Assembly (NCBI GenBank): GCA_022565805.1
Contig: JAIULZ010000009.1
Span: forward strand, 1-53,584
DNA: 53,584 nt
Direction of reading: 5' to 3'
Source: Balneolales bacterium
Lineage (GTDB): Bacteria > Bacteroidota > Rhodothermia > Balneolales > Cyclonatronaceae
Part shown: positions 592 through 34,718 of the stretch, piece by piece
How the letters are laid out: each line of letters starts with the position of its first letter
Position numbering within the stretch: the stretch's first letter is position 1
Position numbers and translations under genes: made by a program
Notes under the pieces: model-generated
What the model was told of the DNA's origin: nothing
Database searches by the model: none
Seen by the model: the letters and a program-made list of their open reading frames with translations, nothing else

Positions 592-2673
592 ATGAACGGT
601 GCGGCTTATCTAAAGAATAATTTTAACTTTTACAGTATTCATCTTATTCCATTTATTCTACTTTGGATTTTCGCGAACCTGCCCGTATCCGTTGCCGGGG
701 CACAGCCTAGCTCCGATTTGTTTAAGGAGCTGCATATCGAAGCCCAGATACTTACCGATGGCTCACTGCTTGTTTCTGAAACCCGTAAATACGAGATCAA
801 TTTTTTCAGAACTTATATTTTGGTTGATATTGCTCATGGCGGGCATCCGGTTGTGGATCTTGAGGTTTTCCTGAACGACGAACCGCTGCAGCAGTTTTCG
901 TCATTGCCCGAATATGCCACCAACCCGGAGGCAGATGATCCCGGTCCGGGGTTTTTCGTACACCCCGGCTCCCCGATCGAGACGCTTTCCATATTTGGCC
1001 GTTTTGTGGATACCGAGCTCCGCTTGCAATACCGACTTGAGGGCTTGATTCAGAACGACGGAGGGTCTGCTTTTATGGATCATAGTTTCAACTTCGGCGC
1101 AGGTGTAGAGTTTGAGGATGCACGCACACGGCCACGATCAGGTCGGGCAATCACTTCCCTGCAGCTTGGCTTTGAGCAAACTCCGGATCAGGTTTTATTT
1201 GCGCGCCTGTTTAACTCAATACGCAACGTTCCGATAGAGCTTAAACGCATGGAAGAAGCAGATAAAAAAATAGTTAAAGTAGCACAAACAGAAGCGCGGC
1301 CGCATTTAAAAATGCTTTTTAGCTTGGATGCCGTCCCAAATCAACAGGCCGATACTGCCAATGTAAATACAAATCCTGAAGCTCAAGATCTTGAAGCAGA
1401 GTATCAGAACTGGATCGATCGCATCGAGGCGAGTGAGCTTAGGCGACAGGAAGCAGAGGCTAAACTTGTATTCTGGCGGCCATTTGGCTGGGTAATGCTA
1501 CTTCTTAGTTTGTTCACCGCGATTGCCCGCAGATTTAGGAAGAGTATAAGAAAGAAAAAAGTTAAACAGCTCGATTTTGAGCAACAGCTCAGCATGAGCG
1601 ACATGCGAAATTTACCGCTGCCTGTTATCCGAGCTTTGAACGATGCGTCTGCACTGCAGCCCCGAAACCATGTTTTAAGGCTCATTGGCTTCGCACTCCT
1701 TTCCCTTGGCAGAGCAGGATTCATACGAATTACCTCCGAATTCACTCCGGAGCTTTTCCAAAACAAGAGCTTCAGTTTTTATTACGGTCTTGATAGTATT
1801 CGGAAGTTCACTAATTTCCAGATTAAGACGATGATTCAGCTAACGGATATTCACATTATACCCACTGACAAAAGAAATGATGAAGATCTGCGTCCCTGGG
1901 AAAAAACACTTCTTGATCATATAAGAACAGCGGGTAAGGGTGAGCCCATCGAGCTCAAATCTTTATTCCCGAGCAAGACCCGACTTAAAAACCTAAAGAA
2001 AAGCGGCCTTGATGGTGCCATTAAGGCTGATGAAGAGCGCGAAACCATGAAATCCCTCAAAGAAACACTCAGGGAACAGTTTGTTGATGACCTCAAAAAT
2101 GGATATGCTTTTTACGAAGAGAAAAAAGGCACGGTTTACATCAATATCGTAACGCTTTTGGTTGGCTTTTACCTGCTTGGGCTGGGTTCTCCACTTGGTT
2201 TCCTGGTGTTTATTGTCGCATTACCGGCCTTAATATTCGCCATTGTCAACCGCTTTGAACGAACGGCCGAAGGCATCAGATACCAAAGGTTTATCCGGGA
2301 TACTTTCAAAAAATTGAAAAAGTCGTCCCGCATTACAGAAGAGATGGAATCTACCGATGATGTGTTTACGGCCTTTATGGTGATAAACTACCCAAAACAC
2401 TATAATGAGCTGTACAACAGGCTGCATCCACAATATTATTACCCATTATTTTCCAGAATTGGCGTAGATGATCCACATAAGCTTAGCAGCTTGCCGTGGA
2501 TAAAGTTCGGACCTTCGCCCGATGATGATCCCGACCGGACACTTTACCTAAACAATTTTATTTTGCTGGATGTTTGCATGCGTGGACTCATGCAATGGTC
2601 GGATTTTGTGGGATCAGAGCTGGGCTCAATTTTTGGATCATCAAAAAAAGATAGCAAAAACAATACGTTATAA
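592..2673 (+). CDS. DUF2207-like predicted membrane protein
   Basis: A 693-residue envelope protein that resembles the DUF2207 family; its function is not known. An N-terminal hydrophobic segment (about residues 17-36) is a signal peptide or anchor. The extracytoplasmic N-terminal domain (about 45-240) has the LTDGSLLVSETRKYEI pattern typical of that family. A membrane segment at about 298-310 is followed by a basic RKSIRKKK stretch, then a cytosolic region with RNLPLPVIRALNDAS. A second hydrophobic block lies at about 520-552. The C-terminal part (RTAEGIRYQRFI onward) also matches the family. The glycine/serine-rich tail common in the family is reduced to a short Ser/Lys end. The ATG at 592 has a good AGGAAG ribosome site. 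It is a single-gene unit. Confidence 0.75.
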   Translation: MNGAAYLKNNFNFYSIHLIPFILLWIFANLPVSVAGAQPSSDLFKELHIEAQILTDGSLLVSETRKYEINFFRTYILVDIAHGGHPVVDLEVFLNDEPLQQFSSLPEYATNPEADDPGPGFFVHPGSPIETLSIFGRFVDTELRLQYRLEGLIQNDGGSAFMDHSFNFGAGVEFEDARTRPRSGRAITSLQLGFEQTPDQVLFARLFNSIRNVPIELKRMEEADKKIVKVAQTEARPHLKMLFSLDAVPNQQADTANVNTNPEAQDLEAEYQNWIDRIEASELRRQEAEAKLVFWRPFGWVMLLLSLFTAIARRFRKSIRKKKVKQLDFEQQLSMSDMRNLPLPVIRALNDASALQPRNHVLRLIGFALLSLGRAGFIRITSEFTPELFQNKSFSFYYGLDSIRKFTNFQIKTMIQLTDIHIIPTDKRNDEDLRPWEKTLLDHIRTAGKGEPIELKSLFPSKTRLKNLKKSGLDGAIKADEERETMKSLKETLREQFVDDLKNGYAFYEEKKGTVYINIVTLLVGFYLLGLGSPLGFLVFIVALPALIFAIVNRFERTAEGIRYQRFIRDTFKKLKKSSRITEEMESTDDVFTAFMVINYPKHYNELYNRLHPQYYYPLFSRIGVDDPHKLSSLPWIKFGPSPDDDPDRTLYLNNFILLDVCMRGLMQWSDFVGSELGSIFGSSKKDSKNNTL

Positions 2674-2747
2674 AACAGTGCTTGATTTAGACAATCTAAC
2701 CATTAATAATGACAAGGCTGTTTAATTAAATTTTTGTGATTGTACGA

Positions 2748-5700
2748 TTATGCGTTTTCACAAACTTCTTTTTGTGCGTGAAACACCACTTTGAAAGCCG
2801 TTCCTACATTAACTTTACTTTCTACGCTTACAGATCCGCCAACGGCTTCAATTTGGTTTTTTGTTATAAAAAGACCGATTCCACGCGAATCATCATTTCC
2901 GTGAAATGTTTGGTAGAGACCAAAGACACTATCACCGTATTGATCCATATCAATACCTTTTCCATTATCTTCGATAATAATTTCTGCAGTGCCCTCACTT
3001 TCATACAGTTTGGCAGTAATCTTTACAAAGCTTTCTGTTTCGTCTCTTTTCTGGCTGTATTTAATGCCGTTGGTAAGTAAGTTGAGTAAAATACTTTCTA
3101 AATAGGATGGGATGCCCATCACTTGTATGTCTTTAGGTACTTGATTTGCTATTTTCACCTGCTTTTGGTTTGCCAGTGCCAGGATACTATCTTTTACTTG
3201 TTCTATGCTATCGAACAGATTAAGTGGTCTTATTTTATCTTTAATCTGCATGTTAGATTGTACCAGATCTTTAAGCTCGTCTATGGTTTTAACTAAATTA
3301 CCGGTAGCTTTTCCCAAAAGCTCAAAGATTTCATCGTTTAATAAGTTGGGATGATCCATTTTTATAAGCGCTAGCAGCCCGCTTATACCCGCCGCATGGG
3401 AGCGTAAATTATGAGACACAATCTGCGCAAAATGTTGTAGCTGAGCATTTTGACCGCTCGAAGTTTCGAGAAGTAACCGAAGCTCTTTTTTAGCTTTTTT
3501 CTCCTTAGTAATATCAAATGCAAGGGCCAGGATAAAGTTGTTTCCGCTAAGATCTTTAAATCGTACTCTTCTAACCTGCAAGAACTGCGTTTCTCCATCC
3601 GGATAAACAACTTGCTCTTCGCCTTCATGGCTACCCGTTTCGAGTGCAATGCGATCGCTTTCCCAGAAAAGTTGTTTTTCTTCTTCAGAAAAACCTTCCA
3701 TCATAGTTTGGCCTATTTTCAAAGGCGTACCCATTCGTTCGAAAAACCTCTGCACCCACTTATTACCATTCACAAAACGATATTGGCTGTCTTTTACAAA
3801 CAAATACCCCGGTATGGTATTAAGCACCAAATCTTGAAATGCCGTAAGTTCTTCTGATTTTACCTGTGCCTTTTTCAGTTCTGATATATCCGAGACTGTT
3901 GCAAAATAATTAGCCACATTTCCATTTTCGTTATTAAGCGAGCTTGCTGTTACCAGCGCCTGAAATTGGGTTCCGTTTTTTCGGGTAAAGGTCAACTCAA
4001 AACTACCTGTACCCACAGCAAGCATTTCTTCGAATTTTTGCTTGAGGCTATCATTGCCTATAGCAGGCAAATACGGAAACGGAGGCTTTTTGCCAATTAG
4101 CTCCTCTTGTGTAAAGCCTGTCATCCTACAAAACGACTGATTTACTCTTATTTGCATAAGTTCGGCTGAGACCACGACGAACCCGTCTCTCATGTTTTCA
4201 ATTAGCTCGTTCGAAAACTGTTCTACCTTTTTAATTTGCCTCTTATCCAGCTCCTGCTGCGTTATATCCTGAAAGATACCGGTTAAACGCACAACAACAC
4301 CGTTTTCCACCTGTGGTACACCAGTGGTTCGCACCCATTTATGATTGTTTTTCGCGGTGATGAATCTGCATCTCAGGTCATATGGCTCTTTCGTTTTAAT
4401 CGTTCTCTTAAGAGCTTGCTGAATACGGGGCTGATCATCCGGATGATAAAAGCGAATAGCATCATTTTTAGTAACCGGAGTATTGCTTTCTAACTCATGA
4501 ATTCTAAAAACTTCGTGAGACCAAAAAATATGATCTGTTTTCAGATCCAGCTCCCATGCCCCCATGCGGCCGATTCTCTGCGCTTCGTTCAGCAACTGAT
4601 TTACCTTTTCCAGCTGCTTTTCTACTACTTTTCTGGCTGTAATATCAATTACATGACATACGTAGTGAATAAACTCACCATTTTCGTCCCGAACAGCTGA
4701 GACACCCAGGATGGCGTGTATCTGGCTTCCGTCTTTACGGATATATCTTTTCTCAATCTGGTATTTGTCTAAGGTTCCGTTTCTCAGCTGTAATGCCATT
4801 TTTACATCTTTATCCCAATACTCAGGATGTGTAATTTCTTTTACTGAAAGGTTTCGAAGCTCATTAAAAGTATAGCCTAAAGCATTGCATAAAGAATCGT
4901 TGGCATTTAGCCAGCGGCCGTCTTCGCTTACCAGAGCCATGCCAGCCGGAGCATCATAAAAAGACGAGCGAAAGCGTTTTTCACTTAGGAGAGTACGCAT
5001 TTCAGCCTGTTTCCTCTCATCTATATTTTCGAGCGTTCCGTACATTATTTCGGGGGCCTGCTGCACATCAGATCCATAAACTTTACCCCGGTCGCGCACC
5101 CATACCCATTTGCCACTCTTGTGATGTATGCGGTATTCTGCCACATAAGTGTCGCTAAGACCGCTCAAACAATTATCGAGCTGATGGTCTGTAATTGTTT
5201 TATCATCAGGGTGAATCAATTCATTCCACTTGCTATAATTAAATGGCAGGAATTCATCTAAAGTGTAGCCGGCGATCTCAGCAAACCGTTCATCAATAGT
5301 AATAGTATTGTCTTTTATGCTCCATTGCCAAGTGCCAACGCCTGTGCTTTCAAGAGTGGCCAATAATTGATTTCTGGCGAAAACAAAATCTTCTATAGGA
5401 CGCCCTTCCGGCACAATTACTACTACATTTCCGTGCTCATCTTTTACAGGTCGCAGACCAAAAATGATATTCAAACGCTTACCGTCTCCCGCTGTAATAC
5501 CTACTTCGTAGGTGCACGACTTGCCAAGAGCCGCCTTTCTTATGTCTTCTTTTAGCTGTTGCTGTTGCTCTTCGGAATGTTGCCACCAAACAGTCTCCCA
5601 AAAGTTTTTTCCGGCTACATCTGCTATTTTTACACCAGCAAAATCCAGCGCTGTTTCATTTATTTCCAGCACAATGCCATTGGTATCAAGCAAGCCTATA

Positions 5701-18990: not shown

Positions 18991-21276
18991 ATGAAGACAG
19001 CAATTACCATGCTAATGATGATTTTCCTGATGGCAGGTTTTTCGTCGGAAGCAAAATCCCAAGCATTTACCGCCAACCTCAGCGGAGATCATGAGACGCA
19101 CCTTGTAAGCACACAGGCTACCGGATCAATCGAAGCCATGCTTGATGGCAATAATCTAATCATTACCGGCTCGTTTATGGGCCTAAGCTCGCCCGTTGCC
19201 ACAGAAATTGCAGGTGGCGCCCATGTACACATGGGGCTTGCCGGCCAGGACGGAGATGTTGTTTTAGTTCTTGACGCCAATTTCGACGCCGACCTTCGGG
19301 GCGGCAGCTTTCTGGCCGAAGATAATACCTTCGAATTAAGCAGCGAGCAGCTTACAGCTCTTGAAAACCGCATGCTATATGTAAATATCCATACCGAGCT
19401 TTTCCAGGCTGGCGAATTGCGCGGTCAGCTTGTTCCCGAAGCAGATCAGGTTTTCCGGGTTTCATTGCTCAGCAGCGAGGAAGTGCCTCCGGTTGCTTCA
19501 TCAGCTGGCGGAGCTGTAATTATTGAGCTTAATGATCATGACATTACCGTTTCAGGTTCTTTTTCAGGATTAAGCAGTCCATTGGCTACCGAAATTGCGG
19601 GTGGCGCGCATATTCACCTCGGCTTTGCCGGTCAGAATGGTGATGTAGCTATCGTACTCGAAGTTGAAACGGGCGACGATCCTACAAGCGGTGTTATTCT
19701 TGCCGAAAACAACACCTTTAACCTGTCGCACAGCCAGCTTATGGCCATGATTAACCGTCAGCTGTATGTTAACATCCACTCAGAAATGTTTCAGGCCGGC
19801 GAAATTCGCGGGCAAATTCTGGCCGATAACGATGCCCATTTTCGCACTACCCTTTCCGGAGTTTCGGAAACACACCTTGTGAATACAGAAGCGAGAGGCG
19901 CTGTTGTAGCAGAGCTAAACGGTAATATGATTACATTTACCGGTTCTTTCGACGGGCTAAGCAGCCCCGTAGCTACAGAAATTGCCGGTGGAGCGCACGT
20001 ACACATGGGGCTTCCCGGCCGTGATGGCGACGTAAAAATCGTTCTTGACGCGACGCTTTCTTCAGACGGCAGGTCCGGCGTGTTTGAGCGCAGTAACAAT
20101 ACATTCGAATTAGATACTGAGCTTGCTACCGCCCTTTTTGGCAGAGAACTATATGTTAATATTCATACCGAAATGAATCAGCCGGGCGAAATTCGCGGAC
20201 AGATACTTCCAAACGCGCAGGTTTACTTTTTGGCTAACCTCGACGGACTTAATGAAAACGACGTAAACGGTCCGGTTGTGACCTCTGCGGAAGGCCTTAT
20301 TTCTGCAGAGTTGGTTAACAACAGACTTACTGTCTCGGGATCATTCAATAACCTGAGCAGCGCATTAGCCACCGAGATTGCAGGTGGAGCCCACATTCAT
20401 GTTGGCGGCGCAGGAGAACTAGGTGATGTTCTTTTCGTACTCGAAGCCCAAACCGACGCAGAAATGACGTCCGGAGTATTTCTTGCCTCAGAAAACACGT
20501 TTATGATAGAAGACGAAGCCATGCTTGAAGCACTATTGGAAGGCGGACTCTATGTGAATATTCATTCCGAAATGTTTCCGTCTGGCGAGCTTCGTGGCCA
20601 ATTACTGGCAGGATTACAGTTTTTTGCCGATGCTCCAGAAATTCTAAGTCCGGCAGATGGTGCAGAAATCACCATTCAAGGTAATCCTGATACCATTTTC
20701 GAAGTAAGCTGGAGCGAGTCTGAGTCTATGGATAGCCACAACATAACCTACCTGTGGGAATTAGCGGCTGATGCCGACTTTGAAACCAACGTTTTGTTTG
20801 TGAATACTGGTTCAAGCGCTTCTTTTGAAGCTACTTTCGAAGTATTGAGCATGCTTTTAGATGATTTTGGAGTACTTCCCGGGCAATCTGTCGAGCTTTT
20901 TCACAGAGCGTATGCCTCAAATGGTAGCGTTAACAGTAAAGGCGAAACTGCTTCAGTTATAGTTACCCGCGGTGTTTTAACTAACATCGGCGACGAAAAC
21001 GGCGATCTACCTACACAAACACAGCTAAGCCAAAATTACCCCAATCCGTTTAACCCGACCACTCAAATCACATTTGAGCTTGCGCAGTCTGGTTTAGCTA
21101 CACTTGATGTGTACAATATGCTTGGTCAGCGGGTTGCGACTCTGGTAAATGAAAACATGAGCGCAGGTGTACATACTATTTCGTTTGATGCGTCAAGACT
21201 ATCATCCGGAACCTATATCTACCGCTTGACATCTGACGGTTTTTCACAAACCAGGAAAATGATGCTGGTGAAATAA
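18991..21276 (+). CDS. Secreted four-CHRD-domain protein with T9SS sorting tail
   Basis: A 761-residue secreted protein. A Sec signal peptide (about residues 1-24, ending SEAKSQA) is followed by four tandem CHRD domains (about 25-147, 150-275, 280-403 and 405-535). Each carries a near-identical core such as SSPVATEIAGGAHVHMG followed by G-x-x-G-D-V. CHRD domains were first described in chordin; their bacterial role is not known. A beta-rich region (about 540-660) comes next, and a type IX sorting domain from about residue 677 starts LSQNYPNPFNPTTQ and ends RKMMLVK. It is therefore exported through T9SS and anchored or released at the surface. The ATG at 18991 has a GGAG ribosome site. It is a single-gene unit ended by a strong terminator. 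Confidence 0.93.
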   Translation: MKTAITMLMMIFLMAGFSSEAKSQAFTANLSGDHETHLVSTQATGSIEAMLDGNNLIITGSFMGLSSPVATEIAGGAHVHMGLAGQDGDVVLVLDANFDADLRGGSFLAEDNTFELSSEQLTALENRMLYVNIHTELFQAGELRGQLVPEADQVFRVSLLSSEEVPPVASSAGGAVIIELNDHDITVSGSFSGLSSPLATEIAGGAHIHLGFAGQNGDVAIVLEVETGDDPTSGVILAENNTFNLSHSQLMAMINRQLYVNIHSEMFQAGEIRGQILADNDAHFRTTLSGVSETHLVNTEARGAVVAELNGNMITFTGSFDGLSSPVATEIAGGAHVHMGLPGRDGDVKIVLDATLSSDGRSGVFERSNNTFELDTELATALFGRELYVNIHTEMNQPGEIRGQILPNAQVYFLANLDGLNENDVNGPVVTSAEGLISAELVNNRLTVSGSFNNLSSALATEIAGGAHIHVGGAGELGDVLFVLEAQTDAEMTSGVFLASENTFMIEDEAMLEALLEGGLYVNIHSEMFPSGELRGQLLAGLQFFADAPEILSPADGAEITIQGNPDTIFEVSWSESESMDSHNITYLWELAADADFETNVLFVNTGSSASFEATFEVLSMLLDDFGVLPGQSVELFHRAYASNGSVNSKGETASVIVTRGVLTNIGDENGDLPTQTQLSQNYPNPFNPTTQITFELAQSGLATLDVYNMLGQRVATLVNENMSAGVHTISFDASRLSSGTYIYRLTSDGFSQTRKMMLVK

Positions 21277-22838: not shown

Positions 22839-23522
22839 TTAATTGAGACGAAAAGTAACCGGGAGAGTCATTCTTACTTTAACAGCCTCCCCTCTGTGCG
22901 TACCCGGTGTAAAACTCATGCCCTGTATTGCGAGTGCAGCTTCACGGTCTAAACCCCCGCCAACTCTTTGCAGAACAGTTATATCCCCAGGCCTGCCGCT
23001 TTCATCAACAATAAAACTCAGTAATACGGTACCTTCAATTCCTTCATTTAGGGCTTCTTCGGGATATCTAAGCTTTTGGTAAAGAGCGCTCATGCCACCT
23101 TCCATTTGGGGCATTTCTTCGACCACGGCATAAACATCATCCGGGTCTGTATAAAAAGGCCCTCGGTTATCCGGTGGAAGCAACTCAACAAGAGCTTCAT
23201 CAGAAAGACCTAAGCTGCTAATATCTGCACGGGTTCGAATCACAATTGCGCCTTCCGATCCACGGTTGCCAAAGCGGGACTCTGCCTCTACAGCGGTTAA
23301 AATCGTTAATTCCTCTATCACTACAGGCATAATACGCTCCATGTCTTCACCTGACTTTTCCAGATTACTCAAAAAGAGCACAATTTCGTGCATTTCTGAT
23401 ACCGACTCTGTCATCATGTCGGAATTTCCCCTGATTTCGTCAAGAGCAAATAGCGGTGTAATGGTCAAAATAGTGCCTGAGAGGATTATACCTATGGTTA
23501 CTATAGTTTTAGACAGTTTCAT
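22839..23522 (-). CDS. Small secreted TonB-C-terminal family protein with plug-like motif
   Basis: A 227-residue protein with an N-terminal signal or anchor (about residues 8-26). A helical region follows (about 35-68). Then comes a short block ESRFGNRGSEGAIVIRTR (81-98), like the YGSRGxxGVI motif of TonB-receptor plug domains. The TonB C-terminal domain (about 145-227) has RYPEEALNEGIEGTVLLSF, DESGRPGDITVL and FTPGTHRGEAVKVRMTLPV. Proteins with this pairing are known in Bacteroidota, often fused to M56 peptidases; here only the periplasmic part is present. It may contact a TonB-dependent receptor or act as a small energy-transducer variant. No exbB/exbD genes are adjacent. The start ATG at 23522 has a purine-rich AGAAAGAAG ahead of it. 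Confidence 0.8.
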   Translation of the reverse strand: MKLSKTIVTIGIILSGTILTITPLFALDEIRGNSDMMTESVSEMHEIVLFLSNLEKSGEDMERIMPVVIEELTILTAVEAESRFGNRGSEGAIVIRTRADISSLGLSDEALVELLPPDNRGPFYTDPDDVYAVVEEMPQMEGGMSALYQKLRYPEEALNEGIEGTVLLSFIVDESGRPGDITVLQRVGGGLDREAALAIQGMSFTPGTHRGEAVKVRMTLPVTFRLN

Positions 23523-25317: not shown

Positions 25318-26643
25318 ATGAATAAATACCTTACCATAGTTGCTCTGTTAATCGGCAGCTGGCTTGTGTCTGGTTTCTTCAGCCTGTTTTTTACAGCTGA
25401 TGCCCACGCGCAGGAACAGCCGATAGCATTTACCGGAGCGACCATTTATCCAATATCATCACCACCCATAGAGAACGGTGTTATGGTGGTGCAAAATGGT
25501 CGCATACTCGCAGTAGGAGCTGCCGGTTCCGTAACAATTCCAACTGCTGCTCAAGTAAAAGACGCAAGTGGCTATATTTTGATGCCCGGTCTTGTAGACA
25601 CGCATTCTCATATTGGCGGTGGCGATGGCGGCGACCGCTCTTCGGCTCTGCATCCCGATGTACGAATAAAGGATGCCGTAGACGTAAGATCAGATACATT
25701 TAGAAAAGCACGTACCGGCGGCGTTACGGTGGCGAATGTTATGCCAGGCTCGGGTCACTTGCTTAGCGGACAAACCATCTATTTAAAGCTTCGTGATGCC
25801 CGCACGATTTATGATATGCTCATTCCAGACGAAAATCTTCGTGACGGATTTATGGGAGGCATAAAAATGGCTAACGGGACCAATCCGCTGCGCCAGCCTC
25901 CTTTTCCCGGTACACGAGCGAAATCGGCAACCATGCAGCGAGAACTTTTCATACAGGCTCAGGAGTATCAGCAACGGCTGCAGAACGAAGAAAACGTAGC
26001 CCGAAACCTGCGGCTCGAACCCATGGTAGAAGCCCTTGAAGGTAACCGCATCATCCATTTTCATACGCACAGACACGACGACATCCTAACCGTACTGCGC
26101 ATGCAGCGCGAATTTGGTTTTCGGGTTGTGTTGCATCACGTAACAGATGCATGGCTGGTTGCCGACGAAATAGCTGCGGCAGGGATTCCAAGCTCTATTA
26201 TTGTGCTCGATACCCCCGGCGGAAAACTGGAGGCCATCAACCTGCTGTATAAATCAGGTCGCTATCTGGAAGAAGCCGGAGCAGACGTTGCCTTCCACAC
26301 CGACGATTCCGTTACAGATTCGAGGCTTTTCTTTAGAATGGCGGCCTTCGCTGTACGAGACGGCATGAGTCGCGAAAAAGCCCTTGAAGCCCTTACACTT
26401 GCCGGCGCACGCATGCTCGATCTCCAAGATCGCGTTGGCTCACTCGAACCCGGCAAAGATGCCGATTTTATTCTACTGACCGGAGACCCGTTTAGCGTGT
26501 ACACCCACGTACAGCAAACATGGATCGATGGTATAAAAGTTTTTGACCGGGCCAATCCCGATCAGCTACCATTCGCCACCGGCGGTCACGAAGTATATCG
26601 CGGCGACTATTTCGACCATTATTCTACCGGAGGTGCCCAATGA
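25318..26643 (+). CDS. Secreted amidohydrolase family protein (catalytic partner)
   Basis: A 441-residue metal-dependent hydrolase of the amidohydrolase superfamily (imidazolonepropionase/dihydroorotase-like), exported by an N-terminal signal (about residues 1-31, ending DAHAQ). The metal-binding HxH is His96-Ser-His98 in VDTHSHIGGG. Further ligand candidates are in HFHTHRHDD and VVLHHVTDA, and the conserved catalytic Asp is in FHTDDSVTD. The C-terminal GSLEPGKDADFILLTGDPF closes the composite beta-sandwich. Substrate is unknown; secreted members often act on peptides or cyclic amides. The stop overlaps the start of the next amidohydrolase gene (ATGA), so the two are translationally coupled and probably work as a pair. 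Confidence 0.92.
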   Translation: MNKYLTIVALLIGSWLVSGFFSLFFTADAHAQEQPIAFTGATIYPISSPPIENGVMVVQNGRILAVGAAGSVTIPTAAQVKDASGYILMPGLVDTHSHIGGGDGGDRSSALHPDVRIKDAVDVRSDTFRKARTGGVTVANVMPGSGHLLSGQTIYLKLRDARTIYDMLIPDENLRDGFMGGIKMANGTNPLRQPPFPGTRAKSATMQRELFIQAQEYQQRLQNEENVARNLRLEPMVEALEGNRIIHFHTHRHDDILTVLRMQREFGFRVVLHHVTDAWLVADEIAAAGIPSSIIVLDTPGGKLEAINLLYKSGRYLEEAGADVAFHTDDSVTDSRLFFRMAAFAVRDGMSREKALEALTLAGARMLDLQDRVGSLEPGKDADFILLTGDPFSVYTHVQQTWIDGIKVFDRANPDQLPFATGGHEVYRGDYFDHYSTGGAQ

Positions 26644-27872
26644 GAATAACCGGCAAACATACTAATCTTTTGCTTTTATTAGCATCATTCCTCCTTTTTT
26701 CGGCCTGCTCAGGAACGCAGTCTGTTGCTTTGGCTCAAAACCAGGTTGCCGTTAAAGGTGATATTGTATACACCATGGCAGGCGAGCCCATCACCAATGG
26801 GATTGTGCTGGTTCGTGATGGCAGAATTGAGCGCGTGGGATCACAAAGCTCGATTTCTGTACCCGATGGCTACGATGTTTTTGAAGCACCGGTAGTTACT
26901 CCCGGCATTATAGACACGCGCTCGGTTGTTGGCCTGGCCGGTATTTACAATGTGCCCCACGATCAGGATCAGCTTGAAACTTCATCTCCGTTTCAGCCCG
27001 AACTTCGCGCTTTCGATGCCTATAATGCGCGGGAAGATTTGGTGGTTTGGCTTCGTAATCTGGGAATTACAACCGTACATACAGGTCACGGACCAGGCGC
27101 ACTCGCAAGTGGCCAAACCATGATTGTGAAAACCTTCGGAAATACAGTTGAAGAAGCTTTGGTAGATTCTACAACTATGGTTTCCTTTACGCTTGGACCA
27201 TCGGTGGGCTCGAATTTTGGGGGAAATCCCGGCACAAGATCCAGATCTGTGGCCTTAATTCGCAGCGAGTTTCTGAAAGCAGTCGACTACATGAACCGCG
27301 ATAACCCGCCACGGGATCTCAGAATGGAGATTCTGGTTTCTATATTAAAGGGTGGTGTCCGGGCAATGGTCAGCGCACATCGGGTGAGTGAAATCATGGC
27401 TGCGCTGCGTTTACAGCGCGAATTTGGCTTCGATCTTGTGATTGAAGGCGCAAGTGAAGCTTATCTTGTAGCAGATGAACTTAAAGAAGCCGGTGTTCAC
27501 ATCATTCTGCACCCTACTATGACGCGTACGCGGGGGGAAACGACCAATGCCGCATTTACTACTGCAGCTGTGCTGGCAAAGCACGGCATTCCATTTACAT
27601 TCCAAAGTGGATTTGAAAGCTACGTTCCTAAAACACGCGTTGTGCATTATGAGGCGGCAATTGCTGTTGCCAACGGGCTTTCATTCGATCATGCAATGCG
27701 CGCCCTAACGATTGATGCCGCTCGTTTTTTAGGAATAGATAGTCGAGTTGGCTCCCTTGAGCGCGGTAAAGATGCCGATATCGTTCTTTGGGAAGGCGAT
27801 CCATTTGAGTATCTCAGCCGTGTTTGTACGGTTTTCATACATGGTGAAGTTGCGAGCGATCAATGTCGTTAA
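26640..27872 (+). CDS. Amidohydrolase-like protein lacking metal ligands
   Basis: A 410-residue paralogue of the gene before it, starting inside its stop codon (ATGA overlap, with a GGAGG ribosome site inside the upstream gene). It has a lipoprotein-like signal (LLFSACSG, Cys near residue 23). The fold signatures remain: GIVLVRDGRIERVGS at the start and GSLERGKDADIVLWEGDPF at the end. The metal-site residues are changed: HxH is now Arg94-Ser-Val96 (IDTRSVVG), the LHHVTDA motif reads IEGASEA, and the HTDDS motif reads QSGFES. It is probably a non-catalytic partner or scaffold, anchored to a membrane, for the upstream enzyme. An altered, metal-free activity cannot be excluded. Confidence 0.88.
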   Translation: MRITGKHTNLLLLLASFLLFSACSGTQSVALAQNQVAVKGDIVYTMAGEPITNGIVLVRDGRIERVGSQSSISVPDGYDVFEAPVVTPGIIDTRSVVGLAGIYNVPHDQDQLETSSPFQPELRAFDAYNAREDLVVWLRNLGITTVHTGHGPGALASGQTMIVKTFGNTVEEALVDSTTMVSFTLGPSVGSNFGGNPGTRSRSVALIRSEFLKAVDYMNRDNPPRDLRMEILVSILKGGVRAMVSAHRVSEIMAALRLQREFGFDLVIEGASEAYLVADELKEAGVHIILHPTMTRTRGETTNAAFTTAAVLAKHGIPFTFQSGFESYVPKTRVVHYEAAIAVANGLSFDHAMRALTIDAARFLGIDSRVGSLERGKDADIVLWEGDPFEYLSRVCTVFIHGEVASDQCR

Positions 27873-27901: not shown

Positions 27902-27965
27902 AAAAAAATCCCCTCTAATGTTAATCCTGTTGCTTCAGGATTCGTACCGGAGGGGATTTTTATAT
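27902..27965 (+). terminator. Intrinsic terminator after the amidohydrolase pair
   Basis: AAAATCCCCTC pairs with GAGGGGATTTT, and an inner stem AATCCTG/CAGGATT sits on a 6-base loop. It is a two-tier hairpin followed by T-rich sequence. Confidence 0.85.
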
Positions 27966-30893: not shown

Positions 30894-33800
30894 ATGATTC
30901 GAAAGTCACTAAGTTACTTATACCTTTTGGTGTTATCTTCGCTAGGCTTGCTTATAACGGTTCAACCCGTGCATGCCCAAGTTGAACATTCAAATTTATT
31001 TGAGTTTACATCTACTCCATTACTTACAGCAGAGCGAGATATTCAGCCGGTTGAATATCGGGCTGTAAGAATAGACCGGCAAATGATGACTCAATCTCTT
31101 AATACGGCGCCGTTTCAGGTTTCAGGCAGATTTATCGAGAGTGCTCAGATAGAACTGCCTCAACCCGACGGCACTTTCCACCGTTATCATGTGGTTGAAT
31201 CACCCATTATGGAAGAAGGGTTAGCGGCTATGTTTCCGGAAATTAAAACATACCGGATTGCTGGTATAGACGACCCCACGGCATCAGGAAGAATAAGTAT
31301 AACACGAGCAGGATTTCATGCCTGGATAAAGAGCGATCGCGGCACTGTCTATATCGATCCGTTTAACGCACGGCAGCCCGATTATTTAATGGTTTACAAC
31401 AGAGAGTCTTTTGTAGCCTCTTTTCAAAGAACGATTGGGGTTTCGCATCAGGAACCCATAGTAGACGACCCAAGCGTAGAGTTAGAATCGCTGCGTGCGC
31501 TGGAAAATGAGAATCTTCAGTTTAACGGCACTACTTTACGAACACACCGTTTGGCGATGGCCGCCACAGCACAATACACTAGTTTCCATTCACAGCCGAA
31601 CCGTTGCTCTACTCCGGAAAACCCCGTAGCCTGTGCAATGAGCGCAATTGTAGTAGCTATGAACCGTGTAAACGGTCTTTATGAGCGAGACATAAGCGTA
31701 ACAATGGTTCTAATTGACAATAATGAAATTTTGATTTCACAAAATCCCGGCGATTACTCCAACAATAGCGGGGTTGCGATGCTAAATCAGAATCAGGCGC
31801 GAATTGATCAGCTTATTGGTTCTGCCAATTATGATATTGGCCACGTATTCTCAACCGGTGGAGGTGGCGTTGCCCAGCTTGGATCGGTTTGTAACAATGC
31901 AGGCAAAGCACGTGGTGTAACCGGTCTGCCACAACCTATAAACGACCCTTTTTATGTAGACTATGTTGCCCACGAAATTGGTCATCAATATGGTGCTACA
32001 CATACATTTAATGGTAGTGTGGGCGGTTGCTCGGGGGGTAACCGTTCCGGAAACACCGCCTATGAGCCGGGCAGTGGTAGTACAATTATGGCATATGCCG
32101 GCCTTTGCGGTGCTCAGAACATACAGTTTGGCAGCGACGATTACTTCCACTTGGCCAGTTTGATTCAGATGATCAATTTTACCAATTCCGGTGGTGGTGC
32201 TACCTGCGGCACAACATCACCAACCGGGAACACACCTCCTGTGGTTGAAGGTGGCTTAACCGAGCTTACACTCCCGCTGCAAACGCCGTTTAAACTAACC
32301 GGCAGCGGCAGCGATGCAGACGGTGATGATCTTACCTTTACCTGGGAACAGTGGGATCTTGGTCCGGCCGGAGCACCAAATAACCCGGTAGGAAATGCTC
32401 CTCTTTTCCGATCATTTCCCCCTGTAGAAGAACCCTACCGCTACTTCCCGAGACTTAGTTCTGTAATCGGCGGCAGCAACGTACCAGGCGAACGTTTACC
32501 AGACTACCAGCGACAAATGCGTTTCAGGCTAACAGCCCGGGACAATGCACCAGGTGGCGGTGGAATTGACTTTGTACAAGTAAATTTTTCAGTTACAAAC
32601 CAGGCAGGTCCGTTTACGGTACCTATGCCCGGTAATGGCACTCAGTGGCAAAACGGCGCGGAAGTTCTGGTTGCATGGAACGTTGCAAACACAAATGTTG
32701 CGCCCGTTAACGCAGAAACTGTATCTATTTTACTTAGTACGAATGGAGGCGTTTCGTTCGATACCAGCATTGCCGAAAACATACCCAATACGGGAACTGC
32801 TGTTGTTACCGTTCCATCGGGTATTAATACAACAACTGCCAGACTAAAAATTAAAGCCGATAATCATATTTTCTTTAATGTTAATCCGGCCAATTTTAGC
32901 ATTAGTTCTGCGGCCGCACAACCATCTGCCAGTCTGCCGGAAGGTCCTGTTGAGTTTACCGTTGGCAGCGAAGAACCTACAGAAGGCAGCATTTCCATAA
33001 ACGCTGCGAGTGGTCCGGCTTACAATTATTTTGCATCAATAAGTTCAGACAACCTGCCAGAACAATTTAATCCGCTTCCGGCAGAGAACTTCTCCTTTAG
33101 CAACCCTGTAGGTTCTGTTCCCGGAGGCGCAAGCCGTGATCTTGATTTCACCGTTGTTGCAGACAATTTATCTGAAGGCTTTTATGCAACAAGGCTATCA
33201 CTTACATCCGATCCCGGAGTTGATGATCTTGAAGTTGTGCTTGTTTTTGACGTGCGGGTTGAAGGTACATTCACGCGTTTACTAACCCCTCCGGGTGGCT
33301 GGAGACTTGTAAGTACTCCTGTTGAGGAAACAACAGCAAGCGTGGTATTTCAGAACTTCACAACCCAAGGCTTTCCCGGCGCTGATGATGAAAGCACCGA
33401 ACTAAATCCCAATATTTACACCTACGGAAATACCGGATTGCGACCTATTAGCAATATTGATACCCAAATCGAGGGTGGCAATAGTGTTTTAGCCTATTTA
33501 TTCCCGGGAGATATTCCACAATTTTTGCGCGCTATTGGTTTTTCCAACAGAAGCCCGATGGAGATACCATTATCGAACCAAACCGTAATTCCAGACCCGG
33601 GTTCCGGTGGTCTGGTCGCAACGGGATGGAACTTTCTTGGAAACCCCTACAGTGTTAATATCGACCTGAATGGCTTAACTGATGATGACTTCGTTAATGC
33701 AGGTCGATCAATTCAAATTTGGAACCATCGTGCAAATAACGGAATAGGCGGGTTCCTAGCCTGGAACGGCCACGATATTTACCCCGACAATGTGCCGAGC

Positions 33801-34718
33801 ACACAGGTTTTCCGCGGAGTACTTGAGCCATTCCAGGGATTTATTGTTCGCGCCAGCGGCATTAACGGCAGTATCACCCTCGATTTGGATGCCCTCGCAC
33901 AAGAGGGGGCCGGCGATACCGGAGACGAACTTTTTGCCGCATACTACACTCTCGAACTTACTGCAGGAGATTTCACAACCTATACTACGGTAATGTTCTC
34001 GGATGAAGGAGAGGCCGGAGACGATTTATATGATGCAGACCAGTTAATAGCACTTTCTAACGACTATGCTTATTTCTACTCTGTAGCCGGGAACCGCGCC
34101 CGTACCATTAATTCGCTGCCGCTTAATTCCGGTCCTGCAACGGTTGATGTACCCCTTAACGTAGATGCTACCATCTCTGGCGACTTCACCATTCGTCTTG
34201 TAAAAATTAGTGGAAGTGCCGAAAATTTTAATAACCTAAGCCTTACAGACACCGAAACCGGTGATGCTGTAACTTTAGGTCTTGGAGATTCCTATACGTT
34301 TTCGTACGAAGGCACCCCCGCCGATGTCGACCAGGAGGTTAAAATGCTGATTAATACACCCGGCTACAGACTACCTTCTACGGCACCGCGATTTATGGCC
34401 ACTTTCGATCTGAGATCGCCAACAAGCACCGGCGAAACCCACTCTGAGCTGCCTCAAACAGTCGAATTACGCCAAAACTATCCTAACCCATTTAACCCAA
34501 CTACCAACATCACTTTCGGTCTTCCGGAAGCAGCCGATGTTCGTCTTGATGTGTTTAATGTTGCGGGGCAACGAGTTGCTACTGTCGTAACCGGCTCGAT
34601 GAACAGTGGCTATCATACCGTAACTTTCGATGCCTCACGCCTTGCATCCGGTGTATATCTATACCGTTTGGAAGCAGGCGGACAAGTCCGCACCGAAAAA
34701 ATGACGCTGATCAAATAG
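30894..34718 (+). CDS. Secreted metzincin (reprolysin-like) metalloprotease with T9SS sorting tail
   Basis: A 1274-residue secreted protease. Signal peptide about residues 1-28 (ending VHAQ), propeptide region about 30-210, catalytic domain about 215-430. The zinc motif HEIGHQYGATH is at residues 360-370 and the Met-turn is in TIMAYAGLCG, so the metzincin/reprolysin (M12B-like) fold is secure. A PKD-like or cadherin-like region follows (NTPPVVEGGL, SDADGDDLTFTWEQW; about 440-570), then further beta-sandwich domains. A C-terminal T9SS type A sorting domain starts QNYPNPFNPTTNI at about residue 1194 and ends EKMTLIK. It is exported by T9SS and cleaved or anchored at the surface, and should degrade extracellular protein. 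The gene stands alone and ends in a strong terminator. Confidence 0.94.
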   Translation: MIRKSLSYLYLLVLSSLGLLITVQPVHAQVEHSNLFEFTSTPLLTAERDIQPVEYRAVRIDRQMMTQSLNTAPFQVSGRFIESAQIELPQPDGTFHRYHVVESPIMEEGLAAMFPEIKTYRIAGIDDPTASGRISITRAGFHAWIKSDRGTVYIDPFNARQPDYLMVYNRESFVASFQRTIGVSHQEPIVDDPSVELESLRALENENLQFNGTTLRTHRLAMAATAQYTSFHSQPNRCSTPENPVACAMSAIVVAMNRVNGLYERDISVTMVLIDNNEILISQNPGDYSNNSGVAMLNQNQARIDQLIGSANYDIGHVFSTGGGGVAQLGSVCNNAGKARGVTGLPQPINDPFYVDYVAHEIGHQYGATHTFNGSVGGCSGGNRSGNTAYEPGSGSTIMAYAGLCGAQNIQFGSDDYFHLASLIQMINFTNSGGGATCGTTSPTGNTPPVVEGGLTELTLPLQTPFKLTGSGSDADGDDLTFTWEQWDLGPAGAPNNPVGNAPLFRSFPPVEEPYRYFPRLSSVIGGSNVPGERLPDYQRQMRFRLTARDNAPGGGGIDFVQVNFSVTNQAGPFTVPMPGNGTQWQNGAEVLVAWNVANTNVAPVNAETVSILLSTNGGVSFDTSIAENIPNTGTAVVTVPSGINTTTARLKIKADNHIFFNVNPANFSISSAAAQPSASLPEGPVEFTVGSEEPTEGSISINAASGPAYNYFASISSDNLPEQFNPLPAENFSFSNPVGSVPGGASRDLDFTVVADNLSEGFYATRLSLTSDPGVDDLEVVLVFDVRVEGTFTRLLTPPGGWRLVSTPVEETTASVVFQNFTTQGFPGADDESTELNPNIYTYGNTGLRPISNIDTQIEGGNSVLAYLFPGDIPQFLRAIGFSNRSPMEIPLSNQTVIPDPGSGGLVATGWNFLGNPYSVNIDLNGLTDDDFVNAGRSIQIWNHRANNGIGGFLAWNGHDIYPDNVPSTQVFRGVLEPFQGFIVRASGINGSITLDLDALAQEGAGDTGDELFAAYYTLELTAGDFTTYTTVMFSDEGEAGDDLYDADQLIALSNDYAYFYSVAGNRARTINSLPLNSGPATVDVPLNVDATISGDFTIRLVKISGSAENFNNLSLTDTETGDAVTLGLGDSYTFSYEGTPADVDQEVKMLINTPGYRLPSTAPRFMATFDLRSPTSTGETHSELPQTVELRQNYPNPFNPTTNITFGLPEAADVRLDVFNVAGQRVATVVTGSMNSGYHTVTFDASRLASGVYLYRLEAGGQVRTEKMTLIK

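Follow-up and report, generated by a model that had tools for sequence, protein, structure and literature searches.

Dead relatives of enzymes that serve as partners of active enzymes are known, and one of them belongs to the amidohydrolase superfamily and works in pyrimidine synthesis. In Pseudomonas aeruginosa, the class A2 aspartate transcarbamoylase (ATCase) is reported to need an inactive dihydroorotase chain for activity, and the dead chain is thus required by its partner enzyme (PMC7053772). Here we analysed a 53,584-nucleotide stretch of DNA from a Balneolales bacterium (GenBank assembly GCA_022565805.1, contig JAIULZ010000009.1, positions 1 to 53,584 of the forward strand), which is referred to as the window. 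It contains two adjacent genes, A and B, both encoding proteins of the amidohydrolase superfamily. B, as we propose it, resembles the inactive dihydroorotase chain in being a dead member of this superfamily that its partner requires. Different from the ATCase system, in which an unrelated transcarbamoylase is paired with a chain derived from dihydroorotase, the partner here is the active paralogue A, itself an amidohydrolase, and both A and B appear to be exported. Our analysis suggests that A and B are probably the two chains of one exported amidohydrolase, with B being an obligate pseudo-subunit that A needs.

The closest solved relative of both proteins is an amidohydrolase from Thermotoga maritima (PDB 3ooq; E 2.6e-52 for A and 9e-45 for B), which we take to be TM0814, the entry itself giving organism and family. 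Its metal ligands are of the A type, as in gene A. Its 396-residue chain aligns from residue 7, and the crystallised chain has no long export-type N-terminal extension. No paper containing the word TM0814 was found in the openly licensed literature.

Sequence-family searches place both A and B in the amidohydrolase superfamily, in which a ligand set of HxH, lysine, histidine, histidine, and aspartate defines the binuclear type with a bridging lysine. Alignment to 3ooq and to orthologues demonstrates that A keeps all six metal positions, namely His96, His98, Lys183, His249, His274, and Asp329. The motifs of A are THSHI (His96 and His98), GIKMANG (Lys183), HFHTHRH (His249), LHHVTDA, and HTDDS. 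Judging from the superfamily, Lys183 is presumably the carboxylated bridging lysine. B carries TRSVV, IEGASEA, and QSGFES at the aligned places, while the motif GSLExGKDAD is retained in both proteins. The initial annotation had read HxH, LHHVTDA, and HTDDS in A, RSV, IEGASEA, and QSGFES in B, and the ATGA overlap between the two genes; its coordinates, frames, and motifs were confirmed. Two further lost positions in B had escaped it, i.e. those of the β4 lysine (Lys183 in A) and the β5 histidine (His249 in A).

The ligand columns were read from an alignment of 79 A orthologues and 80 B orthologues together with the A and B of the window; their state in the A rows is given in Table 1. In the 81 B rows, the column of His96 holds arginine in 43 and histidine in 38, and that of His98 holds valine in 73, threonine in seven, and serine in one. 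The column of Lys183 is occupied by alanine, serine, threonine, valine, or methionine, and that of His249 mostly by threonine or serine, with histidine in three rows. Glycine (77 rows) or serine (four rows) takes the place of His274. The column of Asp329 is glutamate in all 81 rows; a two-residue insertion of B adjoins it, so this glutamate is an uncertain counterpart of the aspartate. At most one of the six ligands survives in any of the B rows, and the B of the window has none. B belongs to the amidohydrolase superfamily by fold and descent, not by metal site. As judged from alignment and model, it is a putative pseudoenzyme, with its metal residues lost and its predicted fold retained and conserved.

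The AlphaFold2 model of B, with a mean predicted local distance difference test score (pLDDT) of 92.2 and a predicted template modelling score (pTM) of 0.89, confidently predicts an intact amidohydrolase fold. It superimposes on 3ooq over 368 residues at 1.8 Å with a Z score of 50.9, compared with 26.4 for the next structure. At E 1e-20 or better, the B profile matches no PDB entry other than 3ooq (E 3.2e-69). In conservation, B comes close to A, the mean column entropy being 1.17 for B and 1.08 for A. Among the five former ligand regions, the β8 region (F321–R333) is the most constrained, as only 0.5% of same-length segments are equally conserved; its conserved form is QSGxExYVPKTR. The β1 region ranks in the top 7.4%. 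Residues 321–330 have a pLDDT of 66 and form the least confident stretch of the monomer model outside the N terminus. Strong conservation combined with low confidence in the monomer is expected of a loop that becomes ordered by a partner or a ligand, which suggests that the β8 loop may be an interface or ligand loop.

The pairing of the two genes was compared across genomes. With a threshold of E 1e-10, 57 of the 59 genomes of the order, ours included, contain matches to B, many of these matches being paralogues and not B orthologues. At 29 orthologous loci aligned within the order, no B row has more than one ligand (the β5 histidine is kept in three of the 29), and all 28 A rows keep every ligand they cover; at one locus A is missing, the contig starting inside B, and at another A is cut. 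A set of named genomes, made of the best 80 of at least 565 confirmed relatives of B, covers Balneolota-type bins, Rhodothermia, Bacteroidetes including Pontibacter, Ignavibacteria, Chlorobi, Calditrichaceae, Gemmatimonadetes, Acidobacteriota, and one 'Deltaproteobacteria' bin. In 79 of these 80 loci, A immediately precedes B on the same strand, and the contig of the 80th begins just before B. Among the 79, A is cut by the contig start in six and interrupted by a stop in one. At this last locus (L066, positions 3649–4953, a Balneolaceae bin), A is split by an in-frame stop or a sequencing error and B is whole.

An even sample of the phylum (198 genomes) contains full-length A in 43 genomes, ours included, and a comparison of coordinates places B next to it in 43 of 43. 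This count omits one genome in which A runs into the contig end (G046) and one that carries an A/B recombinant (G219). The recombinant (L144, 7929–9275), which lies in a one-contig genome, has the N half of A and the C half of B, joined in the shared LRLQxEFGF motif; profile scans of that genome found no intact A or B. Twelve genomes were reached via named loci from other groups, and in all 12 A is adjoined by a B-type match with a weaker score. The distances among A and among B sequences correlate over 73 loci (r 0.74), which can be explained by shared ancestry alone and was not used as support. The dead chain B is genetically coupled to the active chain A. Conservation of both the gene pair and the ligand loss in relatives, which the initial annotation had proposed to check, holds across several phyla. 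It had named pairs whose second protein keeps all ligands as contrary evidence, and a search of the aligned sets yielded none.

Active and dead homologues are also combined in related subfamilies. A second system is present in the genome of the window on another contig (C52), where a 1016-residue open reading frame (ORF) joins a dead domain (D1) at its N terminus to an active one (Act) at its C terminus, and is followed by a dead ORF of 478 residues (D2). Its coordinates are 45–1481 (−) and 1375–4092 (−) in L012, with L005. Twenty such regions were read in other genomes of the phylum: the ligands of Act are retained in 20 of 20, a D1-type domain is fused to Act or lies upstream in 20 of 20, and a D2 ORF, dead in every case, adjoins Act in 18. 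From the 21 loci obtained by adding our own, 15 D1 and 19 D2 domains were aligned. All 15 D1 domains are dead, and no D1 or D2 row has more than one of the six ligands, the columns being read by eye. The D1 domains of L145–L148, L151, and L153 were found and left out of the ligand reading. Nine of the 12 genomes from other groups have extra matches at other places, most of which resemble the second system in score and frame length.

In the phylum to which a Gemmatimonadetes locus belongs, the A profile finds matches at E 1e-50 or better in 127 of 150 genomes. Among the loci that were read there, a dead paralogue comes after the active ORF in 30 of 30. Sorted by motif, three of them are of the A/B type, 13 belong to the second system, and 14 to two further subfamilies (L170–L175, L181, L183, L187, L188, and L195; and L189, L192, and L194). 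These two have motifs like DNHSHIG..HHSTEAY and HSHxG..GLKMACG, and a dead paralogue after each active ORF. In three related subfamilies, one of them represented in the window's own genome, the active member examined has dead homologous domains adjoining or fused to it. The chances seem evenly balanced that, as a rule, an active subunit of this exported amidohydrolase clan is accompanied by a paralogue lacking the metal site, in at least four subfamilies and several phyla, whether the site was lost once early or repeatedly.

Trees were made of the groups A, B, Act, D1, and D2, and each group forms one clade with support of 99–100. B, D1, and D2 come together with support 96/89 in a 71-row tree, which omits 27 of 98 rows (18 A and B rows, and nine second-system rows, of which two are long-branch D1 and seven are near-duplicates). 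A and B as one clade was not rejected by the approximately unbiased (AU) test (p-AU 0.242), and in a larger quick tree this arrangement scored above the free tree (p-AU 0.841). The tree was enlarged with the two further subfamilies, using 20 of the 73 domains of the Gemmatimonadota set and chosen older rows. Here, the active and dead members of one Gemmatimonadota subfamily (Act3 and Dead3) are sisters (87/85), D1, D2, and Dead4 cluster as a single dead group (95/93), and an active group unites Act and Act4 (100/98). In this tree, the dead rows need two changes altogether and fall into one group in 10% of the bootstrap trees. A single origin of the dead partner was not retained, as the A and B clade is not rejected and the enlarged tree disfavours one origin; several losses are not claimed either. 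Because D1, D2, and Dead4 group together and so do Act and Act4, the active-dead arrangement in this branch is, on these trees, probably older than the subfamilies.

The constant pairing, the presumed loss of catalysis, the conservation of B, and the natural dead-active fusion in the sister system point to B as a pseudo-subunit. A, most likely a periplasmic protein once exported, would carry the binuclear metal site and do the chemistry, which is probably hydrolysis of an amide-type bond in a small molecule or peptide. B, as a catalytically dead paralogue, would be unable to hold metals in the usual way. It would probably be made by coupled translation from the short transcript of A, and would be kept because A needs it. 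Its likeliest role would be to assemble with A and either stabilise it or shape or gate the substrate site through the rewritten β8 loop. In this proposal, we infer export, coupled translation, the physical association of A with B, the reaction catalysed by A, and its need for B. The initial annotation had suggested a hetero-oligomer of an active enzyme and a pseudoenzyme. Its adjacent pair of an active-type and a metal-less protein stands, while the complex itself remains a hypothesis.

Several points weigh against B as an obligate pseudo-subunit. First, we infer the contact between A and B, and the joint AlphaFold2 model of an orthologous pair (L071, run as a single chain with 12 paired rows) was poor, with a mean pLDDT of 66.4 and a pTM of 0.49, and speaks neither for nor against a complex; a deeper alignment (A5) for this model was dropped, since B rows had been placed against the A half, as seen in its conserved columns. 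Second, any important function of B, even one that does not involve A, would account for its conservation, and the β6 (13%), β4 (39%), and β5 (63%) segments are unremarkable in conservation. Third, the invariant Glu326 or other invariant acidic or histidine residues of B could serve as a different metal site. Fourth, export was judged solely from hydrophobic N termini and A-Q sites. With respect to the related systems, no D2 ORF adjoins Act in two of the 20 second-system regions (L161 and L162, families f25 and f26), although both contain the fused dead domain, and the 30 Gemmatimonadota loci are the best matches among the 127 positive genomes and not a random sample. As for the two regions without D2, the genome G133 has another match elsewhere, beyond the stretch that was fetched.

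These points leave some room for B acting apart from A. It is possible, but rather unlikely, that B is a separate exported binding or sensor protein, the barrel mouth of which binds the substrate or product of A for delivery or signalling. The conservation of the β8 motif and, less strongly, the β1 motif in a new form fits a ligand pocket, and the export-type N termini of both genes agree with such a role. However, the dead-active domain fusion in the related subfamily is then left unexplained, and no widely conserved gene adjoins the pair, the commonest neighbour cluster in flanks of up to 5 kb being found at nine of 79 loci. We regard with greater doubt the idea that B is an enzyme with a new metal-independent or differently metallated chemistry based on Gln322, Glu326, Lys331, His291, His147, and Asp108. 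These residues are fixed or nearly so in B, with Glu326 present in 81 of 81 rows, but at most one of the six ordinary ligands remains in any B row, and the close pairing with A would be unexplained. To our knowledge, there is no metal-free hydrolase in the amidohydrolase superfamily. Finally, it is very improbable that A and B, 35% identical paralogues that have recombined in one genome (G219), are merely diverged tandem duplicates with B decaying or doing something unrelated to A, as B is almost as conserved as A, the pairing persists in several phyla and recurs in other subfamilies, frequent frameshifts or loss would be expected of a decaying duplicate, and co-occurrence largely refutes it.

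The N-terminal regions were inspected with respect to localisation. Hydrophobic, export-type N termini are found in both the A and the B orthologues, consistent with the proposal that both proteins are of the exported type. The initial annotation had further noted a lipoprotein-like signal only in the second gene and suggested a membrane-tethered B. For the window, the observation is correct, although its lipobox competes with an A-Q site. It does not extend to the family: a simple pattern finds a lipobox-like match in four of 79 B orthologues and six of 79 A orthologues, and in most B orthologues the signal ends in A-Q without the lipobox cysteine. By eye, a plausible lipobox is present in three of the five species of the window's genus that have B (the window, L017, and L018, but not L015 and L016). 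A membrane tether was therefore discarded as a conserved feature.

The features of the locus are collected in Table 1. The genes also overlap in 34 of 79 orthologous A–B pairs, with starts assigned by rule. With a ribosome-binding-site-like GGAGGTG for B inside the end of A and a strong hairpin after B, the pair looks like a self-contained two-gene unit. The hairpin is absent from the list of terminators given by a simple pattern scan, and a promoter scan returned four sites against a mean of 5.1 in shuffled sequences. The G+C content is 51% in A and 49% in B compared with 44% in the whole window, which may be ordinary for coding sequence.

Table 1. Coordinates of the A–B gene pair and its features in the window.
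Feature	Position	Strand	Support
Gene A, 441-residue amidohydrolase with complete binuclear-type metal site	25318..26643	+	Ligand columns invariant in orthologues
Export signal of A, residues 1–31, ending ...AHA|QE	N terminus of 25318..26643	+	Judged by eye
A β1 HxH (His96, His98)	25603..25611	+	76 of 76 covered A rows each
A β4 Lys183, candidate carboxylated bridging lysine	25864..25866	+	79 of 79 covered A rows
A β5 His249	26062..26064	+	79 of 79 covered A rows
A β6 His274	26137..26139	+	79 of 79 covered A rows
A β8 Asp329	26302..26304	+	80 of 80 A rows
GGAGGTG, ribosome-binding-site-like, for B, within the 3' end of A	26629..26635	+	Sequence
ATGA, start of B overlapping stop of A by four bases	26640..26643	+	Sequence
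Gene B, 410-residue pseudo-amidohydrolase, fold of A, all metal ligands replaced	26640..27872	+	Alignment and model
Signal region of B, residues 1–33, lipobox-like LLFSAC and alternative A-L-A|Q cleavage site	26640..26738	+	By eye
B β1 R94-S-V96 replacing HxH	26919..26927	+	Alignment
B β5 Ser245 replacing histidine	27372..27374	+	Alignment
B β6 Gly270 replacing histidine	27447..27449	+	Glycine in 77 of 81
B β8 loop Q322-S-G-F-E-S-Y-V-P-K-T-R333 replacing HTDD	27603..27638	+	Highly conserved, low confidence in monomer model
Terminator-like hairpin 3' of B	27904..27961	+	-28.8 kcal/mol, z -4.66, none of 200 shuffled sequences equally stable

Candidates for the substrate were considered and rejected. 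The Xaa-Pro dipeptidase and arginine carboxypeptidase group (NF051886) is among the best curated-family resemblances of A and B by sequence, and its structures 3mtw and 2qs8 are among the next folds after 3ooq for the B model (Z about 25–26). Assignment of the pair as Xaa-Pro dipeptidases was dismissed, as A scores 68 bits and B 47 bits against a curated cut-off of 500. In general, the curated models score far below their cut-offs for the window's two proteins. Across 68 members of B, the models with matches at 1e-10 span many unlike functions, and no substrate was read from them. Gene context gave no candidate either, no neighbour being widely kept.

Other genes of the window include one at 18991–21276 encoding a protein with repeated HVHMG-type blocks, which we take to be CHRD-like, and one at 30894–34718 encoding a metalloprotease-like protein with HEIGHQYGATH. 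Both proteins end in a NYPNPFNPxT...YRL tail, presumably like that of type IX secretion cargo. A small exported protein is encoded at 22839–23522 (−); from a motif alone, we assume that it has a TonB-like C-terminal domain.

Searches of the openly licensed literature found no publication on the A–B pair, or on pseudoenzyme, tandem, or inactive amidohydrolases forming such a pair. What appears new, and was not found in that literature, is the constant pairing of an active exported amidohydrolase with a dead homologue across several subfamilies and phyla. As sequence families class A and B alike as ordinary amidohydrolases, B is likely to be assigned an activity that it cannot have, and assays of A alone may fail if A needs B. 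If the arrangement proves to be the rule in the clan, dead homologous partners would be a standard, undescribed design, and a sizeable share of annotated 'amidohydrolases' would not be enzymes. With the pair present in several phyla, dead partners also found in related subfamilies, and a natural recombinant at hand, the question of why a dead twin is retained can be tested directly, and the A–B pair offers a tractable bacterial model of pseudoenzyme evolution.

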